From Acidobacteriota bacterium (GTDB lineage Bacteria; Acidobacteriota; Vicinamibacteria; Vicinamibacterales; UBA8438), in the NCBI GenBank assembly GCA_009861545.1, contig VXME01000092.1, positions 1 through 64,000 of the forward strand: a stretch of DNA of 64,000 nucleotides, given 5' to 3'. Shown here one piece after another: positions 48,016 to 64,000 of this stretch (the first letter of the stretch is position 1; each line of letters opens with the position of its first letter). Under the pieces are notes generated by a model. It had not been told where the DNA came from and did no database searches. It saw nothing but the letters and a program-made list of their open reading frames with translations. The position numbers were made by a program, and so were the translations under genes.

Positions 48016-48443
48016 ATTCCGCCGCAGCCGGCGCGTAAGCCGAATTCTGTACCGCGTTCGGTCACGCCATGAGCGCGTCGTCACGCGGCGGCGACCATTC
48101 CTCTGGCCCCGCCGTCGCCGGCGGGATCGAGCAACCTACCCGGAGGCCTCGGACGGGCCGCCCTGTAGCGCCTCCCTATTTGGTCTTGCTCCGTGCGGGG
48201 TTTAGCCTGCCATCCCCCTTGCGGGGGACGCGGTGCGCTCTTACCGCACCTTTTCACCCTTACCGCGCGCCGAGCGAGCGTGCGCGGCGCGCGGCGGTAT
48301 GTTTTCTGTGCCACTTTCCTTCAGGTCGCCCTGACCGGGCGTTACCCGGCGCACTGCCCTGCGGAGTTCGGACTTTCCTCCCCGTCCGATCGCGGCCGAG
48401 GCCGCGCCGGACGCAGCGGCCGCCCGGCCGACTGCGGCGGAAT
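48016..48443 (-). ncRNA. rnpB: RNase P RNA
   Basis: On the minus strand the core elements occur in order: GAGGAAAGTCCGAACTCC, CAGGGCAGTGCGCCGGG, GAAAGTGGCACAGAAAACA, AGGGTGAAAAGGTGCGGTAA, the conserved AACCCCGCACGGAGCAA, and the 3' GAATTCGGCTTA. The ends pair exactly: 48432-48443 is complementary over 12 bases to 48016-48027, giving helix P1. It is the catalytic RNA of tRNA 5' maturation. The coding ORFs here are shadows. Confidence 0.93.
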
Positions 48444-51049: not shown

Positions 51050-52560
51050 TCCCCGTCTTCAAATTGACGCGGCGCGCCCGGCATCGAGCCCCGAATCGTA
51101 CCCGGTAGCGGACCGTGGACGAACAGCAATGCGAGCCCCGCCCGCGAGGCGGGTGTCATACCGGGTGCGCAGTCCCGCTTCCGTCGCCCAAGGAGGGACA
51201 AGCGATGAACGGCAACACCCAAGACACCCACCGCCTCCGCACGGACGACATGCACGTGGTCTGCCCGCGTGCGGCCGGCGTGGACGTCCACAAGACGCGC
51301 ATCACCGCCGCGCTACGGGTCTGCGAGGCGGGCGGTGGACCGGCGCGCGTAGTGACGCAGGAGTTCAGCGCGCTGCCGGATGGACTCCAGGCGATGACCG
51401 ACTGGCTCCTTGACCACGACGTCACCGCGGCGGCGCTGGAGAGCACCGGCGTGTACTGGAAGGCCCCGTTCGAGGCCCTCGAAGACGCCGGCATCCGCGC
51501 CGACCTGCACCATGCCGAGCATGTCAGACAGATCCGCGGCAGAAAGACCGACGGCAGCGACAGCCTGTGGCTCGCTCGCGTGTGCCAGTTCGGTCTCGTC
51601 ACGCCGAGCTTCGTCCCGCCGCGTCGCTTCCGCCAGTTACGGCAGTTGACCCGCTACCGCCGGACGCTCGTCGCCGAGCGCAGCCGCGCACGCAATCGGA
51701 TCCACAAGATCCTCGACCACGACGGCCTCCGCCTCGGCGGCGTCCTGTCGGACATCTTCGGCATGAACGGGCGGCGCATACTCGACGGCCTCGCCGCCGG
51801 CCGCCCTGCGCGACGCATCCTGGCCGATGTCACCGGCCACATCCGGGGCAAGCTGGAATTGCTGACCAGGACCCTGGCCGCCACGCTCGACCCGGTCGCG
51901 CTGGTCACGCTGCAGATGCAACTGGAGGCGGTGGACAGAACCGAGGCCGCCATCGCCGCACTCGACGGGCGCATCCAGGCCGCCCTGGCGAACTACAGGC
52001 GTCCCTTGCTGCTGCTACAGACGATTCCGGGCATCGATCTTCGCAGCGCCACCGCGATCCTGGTCGAGATCGGACCGGACGTCGTAGCGTTCCGCAGCGC
52101 GCGCCATCTCGCCGCTTGGGCCGGAGTGGCCCCCGGCAACCATGTCAGCGCCGGCAAACGCCGCTCCGGGCGGGTACGTCCCGGGAACCGCACACTACGG
52201 GCCACGCTGGCCGAATGCGCCCACGGCGCTGCCCGCAGCACCAGCTCGCAGTTCCACCGCTACCACCAGGAGCTTGCGAAGCGCCTCGGCTACCAGCGAG
52301 CCATCCTCGCCACCGCTCACAAGCTGTTGCGTGTGATCCATGCCGTGCTGAGCAATGACCGGCCGTACTCCGACCCGCGCATCGACTACGAGCGTCTCGT
52401 GATCGAATCCGGTGCGCCCCGCTGGATCCGCATGCTCAAGCAGAACGACCTGATCGAGGAGGTGCGATCCATGCGCACCTGATTCAACGGGTATCCGGAA
52501 TCAAGCTGCATCGTGCCGGGCCAAAGACGGGGCTGCCCGGCCCGCCGAGATGATCCGGGT
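51050..52560 (+). mobile_element. IS110-family insertion sequence (ends approximate)
   Basis: The transposase gene at 51205-52482 is flanked by non-coding stretches: 50927-51204 on the left and 52483-52643 on the right. IS110 elements lack terminal inverted repeats and carry a structured bridge RNA in one end, so exact boundaries cannot be read here. The right flank has a hairpin of GCCGGGC (52515-52521) with GCCCGGC (52535-52541); the left has a GC-rich stem around 51137-51152. It borders the leader-distal end of the CRISPR array. Confidence 0.6.
51205..52482 (+). CDS. IS110-family transposase
   Basis: A 425-residue transposase that starts at 51205 behind AAGGAGGGACAAG. The N-terminal RuvC-like DEDD domain begins VDVHKTRITAALRV and includes ESTGVYWKAPFEALED, HAEHVRQIRGRKTDGSDSLW and a basic helical region. 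The C-terminal transposase_20 domain has LLQTIPGIDLRSATAILVEI and FRSARHLAAWAGVAPGNHVS, with the conserved serine in GVAPGNHVSAGKRRSGR. It is full length. The enzyme uses a guide RNA from the element to choose target and donor. Confidence 0.92.
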   Translation: MNGNTQDTHRLRTDDMHVVCPRAAGVDVHKTRITAALRVCEAGGGPARVVTQEFSALPDGLQAMTDWLLDHDVTAAALESTGVYWKAPFEALEDAGIRADLHHAEHVRQIRGRKTDGSDSLWLARVCQFGLVTPSFVPPRRFRQLRQLTRYRRTLVAERSRARNRIHKILDHDGLRLGGVLSDIFGMNGRRILDGLAAGRPARRILADVTGHIRGKLELLTRTLAATLDPVALVTLQMQLEAVDRTEAAIAALDGRIQAALANYRRPLLLLQTIPGIDLRSATAILVEIGPDVVAFRSARHLAAWAGVAPGNHVSAGKRRSGRVRPGNRTLRATLAECAHGAARSTSSQFHRYHQELAKRLGYQRAILATAHKLLRVIHAVLSNDRPYSDPRIDYERLVIESGAPRWIRMLKQNDLIEEVRSMRT

Positions 52561-52643
52561 CCTTCCGTTCGCTCTCCAATCGCCTGCGCGATCCTGCCGA
52601 TCCGCGGTTACGCCCTTGGTGTGTCTGCATGGGGTGTCGTTTC

Positions 52644-55600
52644 ATAGCAATGAGGCCGCGGGTATTCCCCGCGGAAGACGTTCCAGATCCTCACGAAACG
52701 GCCGCGGCGGGCGCTGCTTCAATGAGGCCGCGGGTATTCCCCGCGGAAGACGCGGCCGAGCGCCCGACGGCCGAGCTGGCGGTAGCGGCTTCAATGAGGC
52801 CGCGGGTATTCCCCGCGGAAGACTGGTGCGGCGCCGCCCGTGCGGACCCCACCGCCGGCGCTTCAATGAGGCCGCGGGTATTCCCCGCGGAAGACGCACA
52901 GAACGTCGAAGTCGACAACAACGAGCTGACGCTTCAATGAGGCCGCGGGTATTCCCCGCGGAAGACTCGGTCTTGCACAGGCCGCCGCCGTGCATCTGCA
53001 GGCTTCAATGAGGCCGCGGGTATTCCCCGCGGAAGACGCCTCGTCGAGAGCAACCCCGGCACCGTCACCAACGCTTCAATGAGGCCGCGGGTATTCCCCG
53101 CGGAAGACTTGTTCATGCGTAAACTCCCCTCGTCAGCAGCTGGGCTTCAATGAGGCCGCGGGTATTCCCCGCGGAAGACGCGGGCCTGGGTGCACGACAT
53201 GGCATGGGAGGCGATGCTTCAATGAGGCCGCGGGTATTCCCCGCGGAAGACGTAGAGGCGGAGGATCTGATCGGCGCGCTCGACGTCGCTTCAATGAGGC
53301 CGCGGGTATTCCCCGCGGAAGACAGCGCCCTCGAAGACGCGCGGGCTTGGGTGGGGATGCTTCAATGAGGCCGCGGGTATTCCCCGCGGAAGACCCAACC
53401 GTCACCGTATCCATGTAACGGTCGCCAGTCGCTTCAATGAGGCCGCGGGTATTCCCCGCGGAAGACAAGATGAACGAACCGCGGCCCCGACTCCCGCAGC
53501 ACGCTTTCAATGAGGCCGCGGGTATTCCCCGCGGAAGACGTCTTCGCTGACATCACAGACGATGGCGAAGCAGAGATGCTTCAATGAGGCCGCGGGTATT
53601 CCCCGCGGAAGACGCATCCTCGCGTTTCTGCTCGCACGACAGGCAGTCAGCTTCAATGAGGCCGCGGGTATTCCCCGCGGAAGACCGCCGCCTCCCACTG
53701 CTGCCAGGATTGGTCTCCCCAGCTTCAATGAGGCCGCGGGTATTCCCCGCGGAAGACTCAGGCTCCTCGACAGCGTCGCCGTCACCGTCACATCCGCTTC
53801 AATGAGGCCGCGGGTATTCCCCGCGGAAGACTGCCCTGTTGCCGGGCGTAAGTGCGCCCGGCAATGGCGCTTCAATGAGGCCGCGGGTATTCCCCGCGGA
53901 AGACGGCGAGGAGGATGCGGAGCCTGCTCTCATACCGTCGCTTCAATGAGGCCGCGGGTATTCCCCGCGGAAGACCTGCACTACCTGTCGCTGGTCCGGC
54001 AGCTCGTCGAGCTTCAATGAGGCCGCGGGTATTCCCCGCGGAAGACGTGGCTGGTTGACCGCACCGTCGTGCTGGTCGAGCTGCTTCAATGAGGCCGCGG
54101 GTATTCCCCGCGGAAGACCCTCGCTCGGGTCGTAGGCGGCGTCCATCTCGGCCCAGCTTCAATGAGGCCGCGGGTATTCCCCGCGGAAGACTTCATGGGC
54201 GCGCTGTCGTCGGGCATGTCGCCTACGCTCGCTTCAATGAGGCCGCGGGTATTCCCCGCGGAAGACCTTGTCCGCGGGCAGACCTCATACAACTGGTATG
54301 GGGCTTCAATGAGGCCGCGGGTATTCCCCGCGGAAGACCCGTGCAGACGTTCACGACGGAGCCGGAGCCTACCCCGCTTCAATGAGGCCGCGGGTATTCC
54401 CCGCGGAAGACACGCTGCCGCAACGCCTGCCGAACCGAGTAGCTTAAGGCTTCAATGAGGCCGCGGGTATTCCCCGCGGAAGACAAGTGGGGGCCGTCCG
54501 GAGCGCTCGGCCGAGTGCAGCTTCAATGAGGCCGCGGGTATTCCCCGCGGAAGACTCTCGATGTCATCCACCGAGACGGCACCGGTGATGTTGCTTCAAT
54601 GAGGCCGCGGGTATTCCCCGCGGAAGACTCGTAACGCGCTTCAGCAGCTCCTGCGAGAGACGGGGCTTCAATGAGGCCGCGGGTATTCCCCGCGGAAGAC
54701 CATCATCCAGCACGAGGATTTGACGCTCAATCATCCGCTTCAATGAGGCCGCGGGTATTCCCCGCGGAAGACTCGGAGCGGCATATGGGTGTAGTCAGCG
54801 CGGTTCTAGCTTCAATGAGGCCGCGGGTATTCCCCGCGGAAGACTTGCGTCAATCTCTGCCGGCGCGCCGGTTATCCAACGCTTCAATGAGGCCGCGGGT
54901 ATTCCCCGCGGAAGACGTGACGATTGCGGGCGACGCCTACTCCGTGTGGATCTGCTTCAATGAGGCCGCGGGTATTCCCCGCGGAAGACCCGGCTCCGGC
55001 GTCGCCGCCGCAGGGTTGCCGTTGATGCTTCAATGAGGCCGCGGGTATTCCCCGCGGAAGACACCCATCGTAAGCTCGCGGATGGTGTCCTGCCCGTCGC
55101 TTCAATGAGGCCGCGGGTATTCCCCGCGGAAGACTCATCGACTCGGACTCTTGCGCACCACGACGGCCTGCTTCAATGAGGCCGCGGGTATTCCCCGCGG
55201 AAGACACTCACGCGCGATGCGAGACCGGCCGATGCCCGTCTCGCTTCAATGAGGCCGCGGGTATTCCCCGCGGAAGACTACATGTTCGCGCAAATTGCCC
55301 AACTTGGGCAATTTGCTTCAATGAGGCCGCGGGTATTCCCCGCGGAAGACGACGGCGAACATGGACCGCGTGTTCCCCGTGTTCAGCGCTTCAATGAGGC
55401 CGCGGGTATTCCCCGCGGAAGACACGCCTCCGGAGGGCGCAACGTACGAGTTGGTGGGTCCGCTTCAATGAGGCCGCGGGTATTCCCCGCGGAAGACGGC
55501 CAGCTTCTGGCGACCTTCCTGCTCGACCGCCAGCTTCAATGAGGCCGCGGGTATTCCCCGCGGAAGACGCCGCCCAGGCAGACGCAACACCCGGACGCCA

Positions 55601-56356
55601 GTTCGCTTCAATGAGGCCGCGGGTATTCCCCGCGGAAGACCACCGGATTGTCATCCAGCGCGAACGACGGCCGGTCGCTTCAATGAGGCCGCGGGTATTC
55701 CCCGCGGAAGACTCGTGGCCCTTGCCCGCCACCGTGACGCGATGATCGCTTCAATGAGGCCGCGGGTATTCCCCGCGGAAGACGAACACCCTGGAGCCGG
55801 CACGAACACGCACAGCCAGCTTCAATGAGGCCGCGGGTATTCCCCGCGGAAGACAGGCCGGCCAGATGCTGGACGTCAGCAGGCTCTTCGCTTCAATGAG
55901 GCCGCGGGTATTCCCCGCGGAAGACGTCGAGGAGCGGGAGAAGATCCGCGCCATCTCGACGCTTCAATGAGGCCGCGGGTATTCCCCGCGGAAGACGAGC
56001 GCCGCGCCGTCTCCAGGTTCCCGGTCGAGATGCTTCAATGAGGCCGCGGGTATTCCCCGCGGAAGACCCACATGGCGAGCATCGAGCCGCGCGAGTACCA
56101 GCGCTTCAATGAGGCCGCGGGTATTCCCCGCGGAAGACTCCTCGGGGCCTGGCGCACCCGCGAGCGCACCAGGCAGGCTTCAATGAGGCCGCGGGTACTC
56201 CCCGCGGAAGACCCAGATCGACTACCAGGAGATCGCGAAGTGGGGACCGCTTCAATGAGGCCGCGGGTATTCCCCGCGGAAGACCCTGAAGCGCCATGCG
56301 TCAAACAACCGGACTACACCGCTTCAATGAGGCCGCGGGTATTCCCCGCGGAAGAC
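52644..56356 (-). CRISPR. CRISPR array with 52 repeats of 36 bases and 51 spacers (type I-G/I-U style)
   Basis: I counted 52 copies of a 36-base repeat (plus-strand 5' end GCTTCAATGAGG, 3' end GCGGAAGAC), with spacers of 35-39 bases. The repeat has an internal inverted repeat of CCGCGGG with CCCGCGG. On the minus strand each ends CATTGAAGC, so the transcript should carry an AUUGAAGC crRNA handle like other type I repeats. The leader is therefore on the right, next to cas2. The leftmost repeat (52644) is degenerate in its first four bases, as expected at the leader-distal end. The copies starting at 53504 and 56177 (TACT in place of TATT in the core) have variant bases. ORFs across the array are artefacts. 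Confidence 0.97.
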
Positions 56357-56566
56357 GGACCGCTCGCAACCCCTTCTGATGAAACGATGTTCACCCCCCC
56401 ATCGCGAGAGGTCCGGCGGCCGTGGCGTACGAGCGCTGTCGACGACGACGTGGCTGATCACTGGGTGCATTGTAACTGTTCAGTTTTCAAGGATCTACCG
56501 GCTTTTCGAGCACTCCCCCGGAATCCCGACGCCACCGGAGCGCTCGCTCCGGGACGGCGGGAGGCG
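56357..56566 (-). promoter_or_regulatory. CRISPR leader region
   Basis: These 210 bases separate the newest repeat from the cas2 stop. The array-proximal and middle part includes an AT-richer stretch (TGTAACTGTTCAGTTTTCAA around 56470-56490) unlike the surrounding GC-rich DNA. At 56535-56552 CCGGAGCG and CGCTCCGG form an eight-base hairpin that could end the cas2 transcript. The array promoter should lie between the two. Confidence 0.6.
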
Positions 56567-56854
56567 TCAGACGATCACCGGCTCGCGGCGCACCGCACGG
56601 AACTTCTTCCCCAGACTCACGAAGCGCGGCTCCACCCCATCGGCGGCGCCGATGTCGACCAGCACGACGTGGTCCTCTGCATGATCGATCATCCCGTCGA
56701 GCCGCGCAACCAGATCGGCTTGCCGGCGGCGGCTCAGGCGGCACTGAAAGACGGAGAGCTGGACCCACTCGCCATATCCCTTCATGAGCTTGAACACCCG
56801 CCGCCACCGCTTGGGGTCGCTGATGTCGTAGACGACGATGTAGAGATGCTCCAC
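56567..56854 (-). CDS. cas2: CRISPR-associated endoribonuclease/adaptation protein Cas2
   Basis: A 95-residue protein starting at a GTG (56854) that lies four bases past the cas4-cas1 stop. YIVVYDISDPKRWRRVFKLM has the metal-site Asp of strand 1, and WVQLSVFQCRLSRRRQADLV and DHVVLVDIGAADGVEP complete the ferredoxin fold. It pairs with Cas1 to integrate spacers. The length and motifs are normal, and the gene appears functional. Confidence 0.95.
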   Translation of the reverse strand: MEHLYIVVYDISDPKRWRRVFKLMKGYGEWVQLSVFQCRLSRRRQADLVARLDGMIDHAEDHVVLVDIGAADGVEPRFVSLGKKFRAVRREPVIV

Positions 56855-56858
56855 GGGA

Positions 56859-58568
56859 TCACCGCGTCGTGAAGTTGGGGTACTCGGCAAGCTCGCCCAG
56901 AAGAAAGCGCCCGAACAGGCGGGCCTGCATCTCCATCAGGCGCCGGTAGCTGACGCGGTAGCCGAAGAGCGGGTGGACGACCTCGTGGCCGAGGCGGCGC
57001 TCGTAGGTCGAAATGAAGCGGCGGCGACCGTCGGCGGTCAGGTTGACGCTGCCGGCGACCGTCTTGAGGTCGTTCGGTCGGACCTCGCCGTTGTTGATCG
57101 CCTGCACCACCACCGAATCGGCTACCAGGGGGCGGAACGGCTCCATCAGGTCGAGGGCCAGCGCCGGACGGCCGTAGCGGGGTTGATGGTAGAGGCCCCG
57201 GTAGGCGTCGAAACCGACGGCGGCCAGCGTCACGGTCCAGGATCGGACGAGCAGCGAGTAGGCGAACGAGAGCAGGGCGTTGACCGGATCCCGCGGGGGA
57301 CGGCGGTTGCGCGTCTCGAAGTCGAAGGCGAACTCCGCGTCCGACGCCGACTCGTTCAACATGGCGCCGAAGGACCGGAAGTAGCGGGCCGCGGCGGTCC
57401 CCTCCACGCCGAGCAGCTCGGGCAGCGATTCGGTTCGGGCCGCGCGAAGGCCGTCGCCCCTCAGGTCGACCAGGACCGGGTTGCTGCTCTCGGCCTGCTT
57501 CCAGTTGCGGCGGAGCAACGTGCGGCAGTTCTGGATCTTCGCGGTCACGAGCCCCCGGGCGAATCGCAGGCAGGTCGTCTCGTCGAAGCTCGCCCGGTAC
57601 TGGGCCGTCCGCAGCTCGACGTTCTTGTGCCCGTTGCCCATGGTGTGGCCGAAGAACCAGCCGCCGTAGCTGTGCCAGGTGACGGGAATCCCGCGCCACA
57701 TCAGCTCGTGCAGGGTGGGCGTGGTCAGGTAGACGTTGCCCATGACGACGACCTGCGAGGTCTCCGCCAGCCGGGCGGTCGCCAGCTCGTCGTCGTCCAC
57801 CGTCACGACCAGGGTCTCGCCCGACTTGGACACCTTCGCCCGGCGGGCCTGGACGTAGAGCGGCAGCGCATCGGTACAGGGCACGGCGATCGGGCGCGGC
57901 GCGACGTCGGCCCCCTTGAGATGGTGGACCTCGTCGGGCAGGCAGACCTCGACCAGCGAGCAGCGCGGGCACTTGGGGCTGTCCTCCAGCGGCGGCGGGA
58001 TGACGCCCTCGGTGGCGACGCGCCGCAACCCCTCGACCGCCTGCTGCGTGGCGGAGACGAGCTCTTCGTCGAACGGCACCCGCACGCGTTCGCGGCTCCC
58101 GACGAAATAGAGCACGCCCTCGTCGCACGCGTAGCCGTGCTCGCGCAGCAGGAGTCCCTGCACGCAGAGTTGCACCCGCTCGGGGTCGTAGGCGCCGCGC
58201 TCGACGTGCGGGCGCTTGCCGCGCTTGTAGTCGACCGGCGTCACGCTGCCGCCGTCCGACTCGATCAGGTCCATGCGGGCAATCAGGCCCAGGCGCTCGG
58301 AGGACAGCGTGATCGACCGCGCGTGCAGCTTCTCGACCTTGTCGACGTCGGCCGGCGGCGGCAGCTTGCCGCCGTCGCGGTTGACGCGCCGGTGCGCGTG
58401 GCGTCCTTCGACGGTATCGGAGGACTCGACCCACTCGCCCTGCACCCACTCCAGGTAGGCCAGGCGCGGACAGTAGACGAACTCGTTGACCATGCGCGCC
58501 GGCACGAGTGGCGGCGCATCGGCGGAGACGGGCTGGACCGGCGGCTCGCGAAGTTCCGGAGCTGACAC
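56859..58568 (-). CDS. cas4-cas1: Cas4-Cas1 fusion protein
   Basis: A 569-residue fusion with GTG start behind GGAGGAGG. The N-terminal Cas4 part (to about residue 225) has the first Fe-S cysteine in NEFVYCPRLAYLEW, the nuclease core VDYKRGKRPH, and the C-terminal cysteines of CPRCSLVEVCLPDE. The Cas1 part begins around PLYVQARRAKVSKSGETLVV and has the catalytic Glu in LLGVEGTAAARYF and the His in YHQPRYGRPALALDLMEPFRP. This fusion is characteristic of type I-G (formerly I-U) systems and of some other I/V loci. It selects PAM-bearing prespacers and integrates them at the leader end. Confidence 0.95.
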   Translation of the reverse strand: MSAPELREPPVQPVSADAPPLVPARMVNEFVYCPRLAYLEWVQGEWVESSDTVEGRHAHRRVNRDGGKLPPPADVDKVEKLHARSITLSSERLGLIARMDLIESDGGSVTPVDYKRGKRPHVERGAYDPERVQLCVQGLLLREHGYACDEGVLYFVGSRERVRVPFDEELVSATQQAVEGLRRVATEGVIPPPLEDSPKCPRCSLVEVCLPDEVHHLKGADVAPRPIAVPCTDALPLYVQARRAKVSKSGETLVVTVDDDELATARLAETSQVVVMGNVYLTTPTLHELMWRGIPVTWHSYGGWFFGHTMGNGHKNVELRTAQYRASFDETTCLRFARGLVTAKIQNCRTLLRRNWKQAESSNPVLVDLRGDGLRAARTESLPELLGVEGTAAARYFRSFGAMLNESASDAEFAFDFETRNRRPPRDPVNALLSFAYSLLVRSWTVTLAAVGFDAYRGLYHQPRYGRPALALDLMEPFRPLVADSVVVQAINNGEVRPNDLKTVAGSVNLTADGRRRFISTYERRLGHEVVHPLFGYRVSYRRLMEMQARLFGRFLLGELAEYPNFTTR

Positions 58569-58746: not shown

Positions 58747-58947
58747 GTGGAGCGCGACAGCCGCAAGCTGATTCAACTATTGGAACGCGACGGCTGGGTT
58801 CGCGTGGCCGTCCGGGGCAGCCACTGGCAGTTCAAGCACCCCGATCATGCAGGTCGTATCACGGTCCCGCATCCGAATCGGGACGTCAAGCGCGGCACCG
58901 TCGCTTCGATCTACCGACAGGCGGGCTGGAAACCGCGGAGAGACTGA
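58747..58947 (+). CDS. hicA: HicA-type mRNA interferase toxin
   Basis: A 66-residue protein with the YcfA/HicA double-stranded-RNA-binding fold. KLIQLLERDGWVRVAVRGSH contains the catalytic His in the GSH motif, and FKHPDHAGRITVPHPNRDVK and GTVASIYRQAGW finish the fold. It begins with GTG. Intact in length. It is followed by hicB one base after its stop, so toxin precedes antitoxin, as is usual for this class. The pair lies between the adaptation and interference genes of the CRISPR system. Confidence 0.9.
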   Translation: MERDSRKLIQLLERDGWVRVAVRGSHWQFKHPDHAGRITVPHPNRDVKRGTVASIYRQAGWKPRRD

Positions 58948-58948
58948 G

Positions 58949-59353
58949 ATGCGGTACGTGGCATTTCTTCACGATGACGAGGAACCCGGTTACGGCATCA
59001 GCTTTCCGGATTTTCCGGGCTGCGTGTCGGACGGCGAGACCGTGGACGACGCGCTGCGCCGCGGTGCAGAGGCGCTCTCGTTCCACGTCGAAGGCATGAT
59101 GGCTGACGGGGAACCCATCCCCCGGCCGCGCTCCCTCCACGACATCAAGACGGACGAGGGCCTGGCCGGGTGGCGGGACGGCGCCACCATCGCCTTCGTC
59201 CCGCTCATTCTCGACAAGGGGTCGCCGCGCCGCATCAACGTCTCCCTGGATTTCGGTCTTCTACGCGCCATCGACGAGGAGGCGAAGCAGCGCGGCATGA
59301 CCCGCTCGGCTTTCCTCTCCAGCGCCGCGCGCAACGAGATCGAGGGACGGTGA
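58949..59353 (+). CDS. hicB: HicB-type antitoxin
   Basis: A 134-residue protein. The N-terminal RNase-H-like HicB domain is visible in EEPGYGISFPDFPGCVSDGE followed by TVDDALRRGAEALSFHVEGM, and the C-terminal part INVSLDFGLLRAIDEEAKQR and GMTRSAFLSSAARNEI is a ribbon-helix-helix DNA-binding domain. It neutralises HicA and should repress the hicAB promoter. It is complete. The decayed cas3 begins 58 bases downstream. Confidence 0.9.
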   Translation: MRYVAFLHDDEEPGYGISFPDFPGCVSDGETVDDALRRGAEALSFHVEGMMADGEPIPRPRSLHDIKTDEGLAGWRDGATIAFVPLILDKGSPRRINVSLDFGLLRAIDEEAKQRGMTRSAFLSSAARNEIEGR

Positions 59354-60260: not shown

Positions 60261-60798
60261 GCTATCAGGAGCTCGCGCCGCTGCTCGCGGAGCGCGTGGC
60301 CGACGCTGAACTGGCCATTTCCGACCGGCGGTTCGCGGATCTACCGCTTCACAACCTTGTGCTTGAGCTCCACCGCCGCGTCTGCGTGGACTTGACACCC
60401 GAAATGGTGGGACGCTGGCGTCTTCGAGACGTTCGGGTTGGCGACCATCAAGCGCCGCCGTATTGGCAAGTCCCATGCTCATGCGCAGCTACGCCGCCGA
60501 TCTCGATGCGCGACTGGCCGGGCTGGACGACCAGTCCGGCGAACGGCTCATCGATGACCTGACGTTTGCCGAAGGTCGCCTGCTGCACGGCCATCCTTCG
60601 AGGACTTCAACGGCCGTGTTTCCCGCCTGTTCCTGATCGAGCTGCTGTACCCGTCTGGAACTGCCGGTGATAGACTCCGCCGCTTCATCACCGGAGGAGA
60701 CGAAGCGCTACTTCGCAGCCTTGCAGGCGTATGACCGGCACGATCCGCGGCCGCTGTCCGCAATCTGGCGACACCGGTTCGCACAGGGAACTCCCTAA
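60228..60798 (+). pseudogene. Frameshifted Fic-family AMPylase
   Basis: Joined over three frames the sequence reads as a Fic protein: LELHRRVCVDLTPEMVGRWR then LRDVRVGDHQAPPYWQVP; MLMRSYAADLDARLAGLDD; the motif HP + FEDFNGR, i.e. HPFxDFNGR with the catalytic His; and a C-terminal YFAALQAYDRHDPRPLSAIW. Single-base shifts occur near 60473, 60596 and 60651. The last frame ends TAATG, so its stop overlaps the csx17 start. Three separate one-base shifts argue for real decay, although assembly error in the raw read is possible. No start codon is certain. Confidence 0.75.
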
Positions 60799-60932
60799 TG
60801 ATCCACGTCCATCGACTCGACGGCTGTGCACCCACGCCTCTGGCGCACTACCTCAAGGCGCTTGGCATCCTGCGGCTCGTCGCCCAGCAGACTTGGCCGA
60901 CCAGTGGGCCAGGGACCGGCGTGCCGAACTAG
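60798..60932 (+). pseudogene. csx17: csx17 (cas8u2) truncated after codon 31
   Basis: The first 31 codons, IHVHRLDGCAPTPLAHYLKA and LGILRLVAQQ, match the opening of Csx17, the large subunit (Cas8-like) of type I-G effector complexes. The match stops at 60890, where transposase sequence begins; the frame then runs to a TAG at 60932. Full Csx17 has several hundred residues. Its ATG overlaps the fic stop, showing that fic and csx17 were once one translational unit. Confidence 0.75.
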
Positions 60933-61243
60933 ACGCCGGCCGGCTGCGCGCCGTCGTCGCCGCGCTGCGCATCCATGTCGAGACCACGCCCGAGGCGCGA
61001 AAGTGCATTCACTATGTGTTCGGGAACCGCCACCGCATGCGCTATCCGCAGTTCCGCGCCAAGGGCCTGTGCGTCTCGTCGGGCGTCGTCGAGGCCGGCT
61101 GCAAGCAGCTCGGCGACCGGCTCAAGCGCGCCGGCACGCGCTGGACCGTCGCCGGGGCCAACGCCATCATCGCCCTGCGCTGCTGCATCCTCAGTGGCCG
61201 CTTCGAGGACTTCTGGGAGCGACGTGCCGCAAATGCCGCCTGA
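60890..61243 (+). mobile_element. 3' remnant of an ISKra4-type transposase gene
   Basis: The frame reads ADQWARDRRAELDAGRLRAV, HRMRYPQFRAKGLCVSSGVV, EAGCKQLGDRLKRAGTRWTV and ANAIIALRCCILSGRFEDFW before its stop at 61243. This is the C-terminal end of ISKra4-family transposases. The N-terminal two thirds are missing. The junction with csx17 is clean at 60890, so insertion followed by deletion explains the loss of the rest of csx17. Confidence 0.8.
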
Positions 61244-62024: not shown

Positions 62025-64000
62025 GTGAACGCCGCGACCCTCTATCGACTGGCGCTCGGCGCCGATCGGAAGCCCGACGCGTGGCAGGCCGCGCTGGCGA
62101 CCGACGCGTGGCCGCGGGTCCTGATTGCGCCGACCGGATCGGGCAAGACCGCCGCGGTGACGCTGGGGTGGACGGCCCGTCTTCTGCACAGCCCCGACGC
62201 TACGCCCCGCCGGCTCGTCTGGTGCCTGCCGATGCGCACGCTGGTCGAGCAGACCGCGCGGGCGGTCGAGGAATGGCTTCGCAAGCTGGCCACCGACGAA
62301 GTGGACAGCGAGGGTCGGCTGCCGCGACCGGAAGACGTGCACGTGCTCATGGGTGGTGTGGACGCGAACGGCTGGCTGGAGAGACCGGAACGCCCGGCGG
62401 TTCTCGTGGGCACCCAGGACATGCTGTTGAGCCGCGCCCTGATGCGTGGCTATGCGTCGTCCCGGGCGCTCTGGCCGATGGAGTTCGCCCTTCTGCACGA
62501 GGACGCGCAGTGGGTGTTCGACGAGGTGCAGCTCATGGGCGCGGGCCGCGCGACGTCCGCCCAGCTCGACGCCTTCCGGCAGTCGGAAGCCGAGCGCGCC
62601 CGACCCGACGGCCGCGCAGCGGGCGCCTGGTCCCGCAGCCTCTGGATCTCGGCCACGCTCGACCCGGACTGGCTCGCCACCGTCGATCACCCTGCACCGG
62701 CCGCCGCGGCCGTAGTCCGGGTGGATGCGGACGCGGCCCCGGGCGGCCGGCTCGCGAAGCTGACGCGCGCGCCGAAGAGACTGACCCGGTCGCCAGCGGT
62801 GCCGGCGTCTGCGAAGAAGGCCGACATCGCCGACTACGTCGGGCGGCTAGCGGATGAGATCGTGAGCGCCCACCGCGACGGCCGGATGACTCTGGCCATC
62901 GTCAATCGCGTCGACCGCGCGCAGACGCTACGCGACGCGATCGAGAAGAGGCTGCCCGGCCGGCCGGCCGCGGCGCCGGCGCTGGCGCTGGTCCACTCCC
63001 GCTTCCGCGCCGCCGACCGCGCGCGGGAGATGGCGACGGCCCTCGACGCGGACGGAGCGAATCCGCACGGCCGCATCGTCGTGGCCACGCAGGCGATCGA
63101 GGCGGGCGTGGACATCTCGGCCGCCGTCCTGTTCACCGAGCTGGCCCCCTGGTCCTCGCTGGTGCAGCGCTTCGGCCGCGCCAACCGCTACGCGGAGTTC
63201 CCCGACGGCGCGGACGTGCGCTGGATCGACTTGCTCCAACCGGCGGCGGACGCCACGGCTTCGGACAAGGACACCGAGGAGCTGGCGAGGCCCTACGAGA
63301 CCGCGGAGCTGCAGGCCGCGCGGGATAGATTGACCGGGTTGACCGATGTCGCGCCGGTGCACCTTCCCCCGCCCGGCGACATCGACCCACCGCGCCGCGT
63401 GATCCGCCGCAAGGACCTCGATGACCTGTTCGACACCGATCCGGACCTGACCGGCTTCGACGTCGACGTGTCGCCGTACGTCCGCGACGCCGACGACACC
63501 GACATCCGCGTCTTCTGGAGGGATCCCTCGGAGGCGAACGACGATCCGCCGCGTCCCGGAAGGGACGAGCTGTGCGCGGTGTCGATCGGCACGGCCGGGA
63601 AGTGGATGGACAAGCTCCCCCACAAGGGGCGAAGCCTGCTGTTCCAGCGCGACCCGCAGTGGCGGCGCCGGGACGGTCGGACCGGGACGGCCCCACCCGG
63701 ATGGATGCGCCTGGAGGGCAGACCCTGGCCGGGCCTCGTGCTCTTGGCGTATCCGGCGGCCGGCGGCTACCGCGAGACAGCAGGATTCACAGGCGATCCG
63801 AAGGACGTGCCCGAGCCGATCTCGGGCCTGGCAACGCTCGGCGCCGGCGCGGTGCCGCACAGCTCCGCCGCTCCAGCGCAGCCAGAGGCCAAGGTCGAGC
63901 AGTTCGAACGCCATCCTCGCAAGCAGGAAAACAGTGCCGCTGCTCCGGTGCAGCAGGAGGCCGAGGGACACGACGAAGATCCGCTCAGCGGGATCGACGC
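62025..64000 (+). CDS. cas3: CRISPR helicase-nuclease Cas3, type I-G (3' partial)
   Basis: The frame is open from a GTG at 62025 to the window edge (658 codons). Helicase motifs are complete: Walker A in IAPTGSGKTAA, TLVEQTARAVEEWL, DEVQLMGAG for the DEAD box, SATLDPDW, the second RecA domain with LALVHSRFRAADRAREM, motif V ATQAIEAGVDIS, and QRFGRANRY. The helicase comes first, and the HD domain is expected beyond 64000, the order of type I-G Cas3. It unwinds and degrades target DNA recruited by Cascade. It is a second copy of the decayed gene at 59412. Confidence 0.93.
   Translation, partial: MNAATLYRLALGADRKPDAWQAALATDAWPRVLIAPTGSGKTAAVTLGWTARLLHSPDATPRRLVWCLPMRTLVEQTARAVEEWLRKLATDEVDSEGRLPRPEDVHVLMGGVDANGWLERPERPAVLVGTQDMLLSRALMRGYASSRALWPMEFALLHEDAQWVFDEVQLMGAGRATSAQLDAFRQSEAERARPDGRAAGAWSRSLWISATLDPDWLATVDHPAPAAAAVVRVDADAAPGGRLAKLTRAPKRLTRSPAVPASAKKADIADYVGRLADEIVSAHRDGRMTLAIVNRVDRAQTLRDAIEKRLPGRPAAAPALALVHSRFRAADRAREMATALDADGANPHGRIVVATQAIEAGVDISAAVLFTELAPWSSLVQRFGRANRYAEFPDGADVRWIDLLQPAADATASDKDTEELARPYETAELQAARDRLTGLTDVAPVHLPPPGDIDPPRRVIRRKDLDDLFDTDPDLTGFDVDVSPYVRDADDTDIRVFWRDPSEANDDPPRPGRDELCAVSIGTAGKWMDKLPHKGRSLLFQRDPQWRRRDGRTGTAPPGWMRLEGRPWPGLVLLAYPAAGGYRETAGFTGDPKDVPEPISGLATLGAGAVPHSSAAPAQPEAKVEQFERHPRKQENSAAAPVQQEAEGHDEDPLSGID

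Follow-up and report, generated by a model that had tools for sequence, protein, structure and literature searches.

Two spacers with long perfect hairpins in a type I-G CRISPR array of an Acidobacteriota bacterium

The type I-G locus and its array

The window analysed here is the whole stretch of 64,000 nucleotides of contig VXME01000092.1, from an Acidobacteriota bacterium (assembly GCA_009861545.1). It contains a CRISPR array to which a cas2g gene and a cas4g/cas1g fusion adjoin, with a cas3g gene further to the right, and on this basis we assigned the locus to type I-G (Table 1). The Cas4-Cas1 fusion is of the I-G kind (family cas4g_cas1g), and Cas3g matches its family above the cut-off, the gene being cut by the window edge, where its frame is still open.

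Table 1. Positions in the window of the array, the two hairpin spacers and the neighbouring genes.
Feature	Position	Strand	Description
Type I-G CRISPR array	52644..56356	-	52 repeats of 36 bp, 51 spacers of 35-39 bp; crRNA strand minus
Spacer 17	53832..53868	-	35th counted from the leader; 53839-53864 form a perfect inverted repeat of 10 bp with a loop of 6
Spacer 37	55279..55314	-	15th counted from the leader; its dyad occupies the seed (repeat-handle) end of the guide
Perfect dyad of spacer 37	55290..55316	.	27 bp; 13 bases on each side of C55303
Presumed leader	56357..56566	-	between cas2 and the first repeat
cas2g	56567..56890	-	PADLOC Cas2g 3e-29; NCBIfam cas2
cas4g/cas1g fusion	56859..58568	-	NCBIfam NF049935, 825 bits (cut-off 560); PADLOC Cas1g 6.7e-194
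cas3g	62025..63998	+	NCBIfam TIGR02621, 523 bits (cut-off 400)

The high-coordinate end was taken as the leader side because the cas2 gene lies there and because the repeat at the low-coordinate end, at 52644, is degenerate (4 mismatches); with the leader at the high end, the crRNA strand is the minus strand. On that strand the repeat reads GTCTTCCGCGGGGAATACCCGCGGCCTCATTGAAGC and is matched by Rfam CRISPR-DR16. It consists of a CCGCGGG-GAATA-CCCGCGG stem-loop (7-bp stem), then CCTC, then ATTGAAGC, and this layout of a 7-bp stem, 4 nt and an 8-nt handle agrees with that of type I-G. A very similar repeat, GTCTTCCGCGGCATTCAGCCGCGGCCTCATTGAAGC, is found in the I-G array of Thioalkalivibrio sulfidiphilus (strain ALJ17, here L078), which is also 36 nt long and has the same succession of 7-bp stem, CCTC and ATTGAAGC. 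According to a passage of PMC9638904, the T. sulfidiphilus repeat is cut 4 nt beyond the 3' side of its 7-bp stem, so that an 8-nt handle remains. No sigma-70-like promoter was found in a scan of 52600-56700, and no second array with the same repeat was found in the 6.35-Mb assembly, where the 52 matches to the repeat with E 0.001 or better lie, without exception, in this array.

An IS110-family RNA-guided transposase gene (51115-52482, plus strand, NCBIfam 249 bits) ends about 160 bases before the trailer end, and an ISKra4-family transposase fragment (60731-61243, plus strand, 103 bits, below the 205 cut-off) sits between cas4-1 and cas3. The same interval holds a 168-aa frame (58847-59353, plus strand) that matches no PADLOC or NCBIfam family and that we take to resemble a HicB-type antitoxin. 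Toxin-antitoxin genes near Cas4-1 are mentioned for T. sulfidiphilus in a passage of PMC9638904. Left of the array, a bacterial class A RNase P RNA lies at 48020-48435 (minus strand, 277 bits).

Two hairpin spacers and the rarity of such stems

Two spacers, 17 and 37, contain long perfect hairpins, whose coordinates and sequences are exactly those given in the sequence-only reading of this DNA. Spacer 17 has the form TTGCCGGGCG / TAAGTG / CGCCCGGCAA, with 10 bp perfectly paired, and three outer pairs added to these ten make it pair nearly end to end. For spacer 37, the 9-bp stem with loop AACTT that had been described is real, but it is only part of a longer perfect dyad of 13+1+13 bases, GCAAATTGCCCAA-C-TTGGGCAATTTGC. 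The dyad begins right at the repeat junction, the final two bases of one arm (55315-55316) belonging to the repeat, and the spacer runs on for 11 further bases past it; as RNA it would form 12 pairs with a 3-nt loop. Neither spacer is duplicated within the array, and in the remaining 49 of the 51 spacers the longest perfect stem does not exceed 6 bp (loops of 3-15).

The same reading had called such palindromes rare in random spacers, which was borne out by the rest of the array and by three kinds of comparison. In dinucleotide shuffles of the 51 spacers (400 array copies, 20,400 spacers, loops of 3-10), stems of at least 10 bp arose once and stems of at least 9 bp 20 times. As natural relatives we used 1,807 distinct spacers of 68 type I-G arrays, drawn from 90 DNA stretches found by repeat pattern, leaving out stretches with fewer than 3 pattern matches and spacers outside 28-50 nt. 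Stems of at least 10 bp occur in two of these (Fisher p = 0.004 against 2/51 in the array) and stems of at least 9 bp in five (0.28%; p = 0.014), all p values given here being post hoc, as spacers 17 and 37 were chosen because they stood out. Shuffles of the related spacers gave 12/18,070 and 4/18,070 for stems of at least 9 and 10 bp, respectively.

The five related spacers supply a base rate for strongly self-folding spacers in this group of arrays. They come from L068, L058, L103, L116 and L120, which resemble the present array in having perfect 9-10 bp stems within a spacer but differ from it in having one hairpin spacer per array instead of two; the L116 entry opens with bases of the repeat and was probably cut out wrongly. 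The T. sulfidiphilus array differs further, since none of its 58 extracted spacers has a stem of at least 8 bp, whereas here 2/51 have 10-bp stems.

The third comparison was with phage DNA. Across 178 kb of high-GC phage DNA (four stretches), stems of at least 9 bp are present in 0.30% of 36-mers and stems of at least 10 bp in 0.16%, the latter rate varying from 0/49,092 36-mers in D29 to 178/49,965 (0.36%) in part of phiCbK. At the pooled phage rate, 0.08 stems of at least 10 bp would be expected in 51 spacers (Poisson P of two or more = 0.003, likewise post hoc), and 0.18 at the rate of the phiCbK part; the observed 2/51 is about 25 times the pooled rate. Within the window, the left part has such stems in 0.16% (at least 9 bp) and 0.07% (at least 10 bp) of its 36-mers. 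The excess of hairpin spacers is thus smaller against natural sequence than against shuffles. Indeed, the rate in related I-G arrays (0.28% at 9 bp or more) is close to that in phage 36-mers, so that sampling from natural DNA is enough to account for the group as a whole, without any bias in acquisition.

Predicted folding of repeats and guides

It had been proposed that the two palindromes compete with the repeat fold during crRNA processing. A folding prediction for all 51 units does not support this, the probabilities of the repeat hairpins beside spacers 17 and 37 being near the median. For the 7-bp hairpins upstream and downstream, the predicted values are 0.96 and 0.91 at spacer 17, 0.91 and 0.94 at spacer 37, and 0.95 and 0.89 as medians of the other 49 units. 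In a wider context they are 0.98 and 0.98 at spacer 37 and 0.96 and 0.89 at spacer 17 (medians 0.91 and 0.93), the downstream value at spacer 17 being the 13th lowest of 51. The repeat hairpins beside both spacers are therefore predicted to fold normally. The most disturbed repeat hairpins in the wider context are predicted in units 23, 49 and 43. Unit 23 (54267-54302), with 0.45 and 0.05, is the most affected, and its longest perfect stem has just 5 bp; spacer 49 (56139-56176) folds strongly when G-U pairs are included (-22.9 kcal/mol), and its leader-side neighbouring repeat hairpin is predicted to be weak (0.22).

As for the guides themselves, spacer 17 has the lowest minimum free energy (MFE) of the 51 spacers, -25.6 kcal/mol, a stability matched or surpassed by only 2/1,807 related spacers. 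Spacer 37 ranks 13th with -12.3 kcal/mol, a stability reached or exceeded by 341/1,807 related spacers; its MFE z is -2.25, and 14/500 of its own shuffles fold equally well. Its seed (the first eight bases) is predicted to be unpaired with a probability of 0.001, the lowest of all 51. A general structural excess of the array was considered but not supported: two of the 51 spacers (17 and 11) have an MFE z below -3, against 2.0% of the 1,807 related spacers, a comparison made by this fraction alone, as the mean z is undefined (at least one related spacer has variance-free shuffles).

An intact repeat hairpin does not by itself assure normal processing of units 17 and 37, to judge from a case in Cas12a arrays. 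In the CRATES study of Cas12a arrays, the abundance and activity of crRNAs varied with the predicted structure of the array, and the authors expected inhibited processing of a native spacer that has a correct repeat hairpin together with a 10-bp hairpin running through its 3' end (PMC6610086). Of the cases compared here, this native spacer comes closest to units 17 and 37. Cas12a arrays differ in being type V, with another nuclease, and in the synthetic array of that study the poor units often had a disrupted repeat hairpin, whereas here the hairpins are predicted to be intact. Spacers 17 and 37 offer two natural guides with which to test the tolerance of type I-G Cascade for guides that are folded or have a buried seed.

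The palindrome of spacer 37 starts at the first base, and for this reason the guide has a further match, of 24/25 bases, on the opposite strand of its own unit, where the site lies next to CGC instead of the repeat. The next best opposite-strand self-match among the 51 spacers is of 11 bases with one mismatch allowed. A TTN PAM is stated for type I-G in a passage of PMC9638904, and given such a PAM the off-strand site of guide 37 should be harmless, in what is a single case. We would not put much weight on the broader proposal that a spacer with a palindrome at its PAM-proximal end gives its own array a further self-target on the other strand, guarded by the missing TTN PAM and not by the repeat. 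If it were general, an array could tolerate spacers of this kind only with an inner flank other than a PAM, which would amount to a hidden constraint on the palindromes that can be remembered.

Likely sources of the hairpins

Protospacers of spacers 17 and 37 were found neither in the genome of the bacterium itself nor in IMG/VR (exact patterns), INPHARED, PLSDB or the genomes of the phylum or order. In the viral contigs, the exact cores of both spacers gave no hit, and neither did a pattern of the two spacer 17 arms that left the loop open. The 16-base seed of spacer 17 hit 49 contigs and the 17-base seed of spacer 37 hit two; the best ungapped full-length matches, 27/37 for spacer 17 and, in its two contigs, 22/36 for spacer 37, were taken as chance. 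INPHARED gave no match for spacer 17 and just three weak records for spacer 37 (E 5), and PLSDB gave 12 records for spacer 17 (best E 0.4) and five for spacer 37 (E 4), none of them a protospacer. Among whole genomes, at up to 3 mismatches, the array itself was the only match, in 396 genomes of the phylum for spacer 37 and in 60 of the order for spacer 17.

Five of the 51 spacers were searched in the phage collection, all 51 being compared only with the collected loci. The three controls fared no better: spacer 51 had no match, spacer 36 had four records (E 6) and spacer 16 had ninety-four, with E 6 among the matches listed (best 5 of 94); a 20-base seed of spacer 51 was also absent from the viral contigs. 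As these three spacers of the array are likewise without a convincing match in the phage collection, the collections probably cover the invaders of this host poorly. Among the papers listed by searches of one literature library, none deals, by its title or the start of its abstract, with naturally palindromic spacers or their protospacers.

A self-targeting or host REP-like source was rejected, as neither stem has another copy in the bacterium's own genome at up to 2 mismatches. At 3 mismatches, the spacer 17 stem has five other sites, against four for a reversed-pattern control, and the spacer 37 stem has none.

The position of comparable stems in phage DNA points to a class of source. The four phage stretches contain 40 stems of at least 9 bp, of which two, in D3112, overlap. 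Annotated genes leave just 9.6% of the bases uncovered, yet 26 of the 40 stems are found there, about 7 times the number that this share predicts. By this yardstick, spacers 17 and 37 most likely come from non-coding dyads.

Our preferred explanation, to which we give a probability of about 0.58, is that both spacers derive from inverted-repeat (dyad) sites of not-yet-sequenced mobile elements and are otherwise ordinary for type I-G, with flanking repeats predicted to fold normally and a possible self-folding penalty. The dyads would most probably be non-coding, for instance an operator, some other regulatory stem or a terminator whose T tail is poor. The minus strand would be transcribed and the pre-crRNA processed in the usual way, by a cut 4 nt beyond the 3' side of the 7-bp stem that yields the 8-nt handle AUUGAAGC. 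The guide would then fold on itself and have to be melted by the Cas7 backbone, and crRNAs 17 and 37 may load or search less well than others, 37 above all owing to its buried seed. No new system is revealed here; these are ordinary type I-G spacers of unusual shape.

The main competitor, clearly less probable yet a serious one, is that both hairpins are accidental inverted repeats in ordinary coding protospacers, with nothing regulatory sampled. Since 14 of the 40 phage stems lie within annotated genes, a coding source for either spacer is quite possible, and the sole viral contig with the outer arms of the spacer 37 dyad around an open loop carries them inside a 315-aa reading frame (24/36 bases match, so it is not the protospacer). 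Against a coding accident stand the preponderance of stems outside genes and the length of the spacer 37 dyad, which exceeds that of most listed phage stems.

A narrower form of the non-coding explanation, in which the hairpins are intrinsic (rho-independent) phage terminators, had been suggested at the outset and appears rather unlikely. The stem of spacer 17 is followed by TGGC on the plus strand or CAGGGCA on the minus strand, so that neither strand carries a T run, and a strict terminator scan (5 T in 8 needed) listed neither hairpin; a terminator with a T run is thus an unlikely source of spacer 17. It is doubtful for spacer 37, which has as its only T run a TTT within the dyad; if the PAM is TTN, the plus strand past the stem would be NAA and the T run could not be long. 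On the other side, the annotated predicted terminators of phiCbK have similar GC-rich stems with short T tails only, and by eye some of them would also fail the scan, which covered 52600-56700 of the window.

Very improbable, in our estimation, is the capture by Cas4-Cas1-Cas2 of folded or snap-back single-stranded DNA, whereby the inverted repeat would be made during acquisition and be absent from the invader as such. The near end-to-end pairing of spacer 17 and the start of the spacer 37 dyad exactly at the repeat junction would fit such an event, but hairpin spacers are no commoner in related I-G arrays than such stems are in phage DNA (5/1,807 against 0.30%), and spacer 37 runs on beyond its full dyad in the way expected of an ordinary fragment. 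Weakest of all is the idea that the spacers were kept for the function of their fold, as dead or regulatory guides or by blocking the processing of a neighbour: it would suit the almost fully paired seed of spacer 37, but the flanking repeat hairpins are predicted to be intact, neither spacer has a second copy in the array, and at up to 3 mismatches both match only themselves in the genomes searched.

Apart from the origin of the two hairpin spacers, spacer 9 (53252-53287) matches, with 28/36 bases and 21/22 in one run, a cas4/cas1 gene beside related I-G arrays, the gene being named by eye from its translation. The matches are in L055 (2434 onwards) and L056, from a Rhodocyclaceae genome and Thauera phenylacetica, and are the best outside the pattern-fetched loci; the window's own cas region, beyond 56400, reaches 24/36 at best. 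The match may be due to chance, or spacer 9 is possibly directed against a rival or mobile I-G locus.
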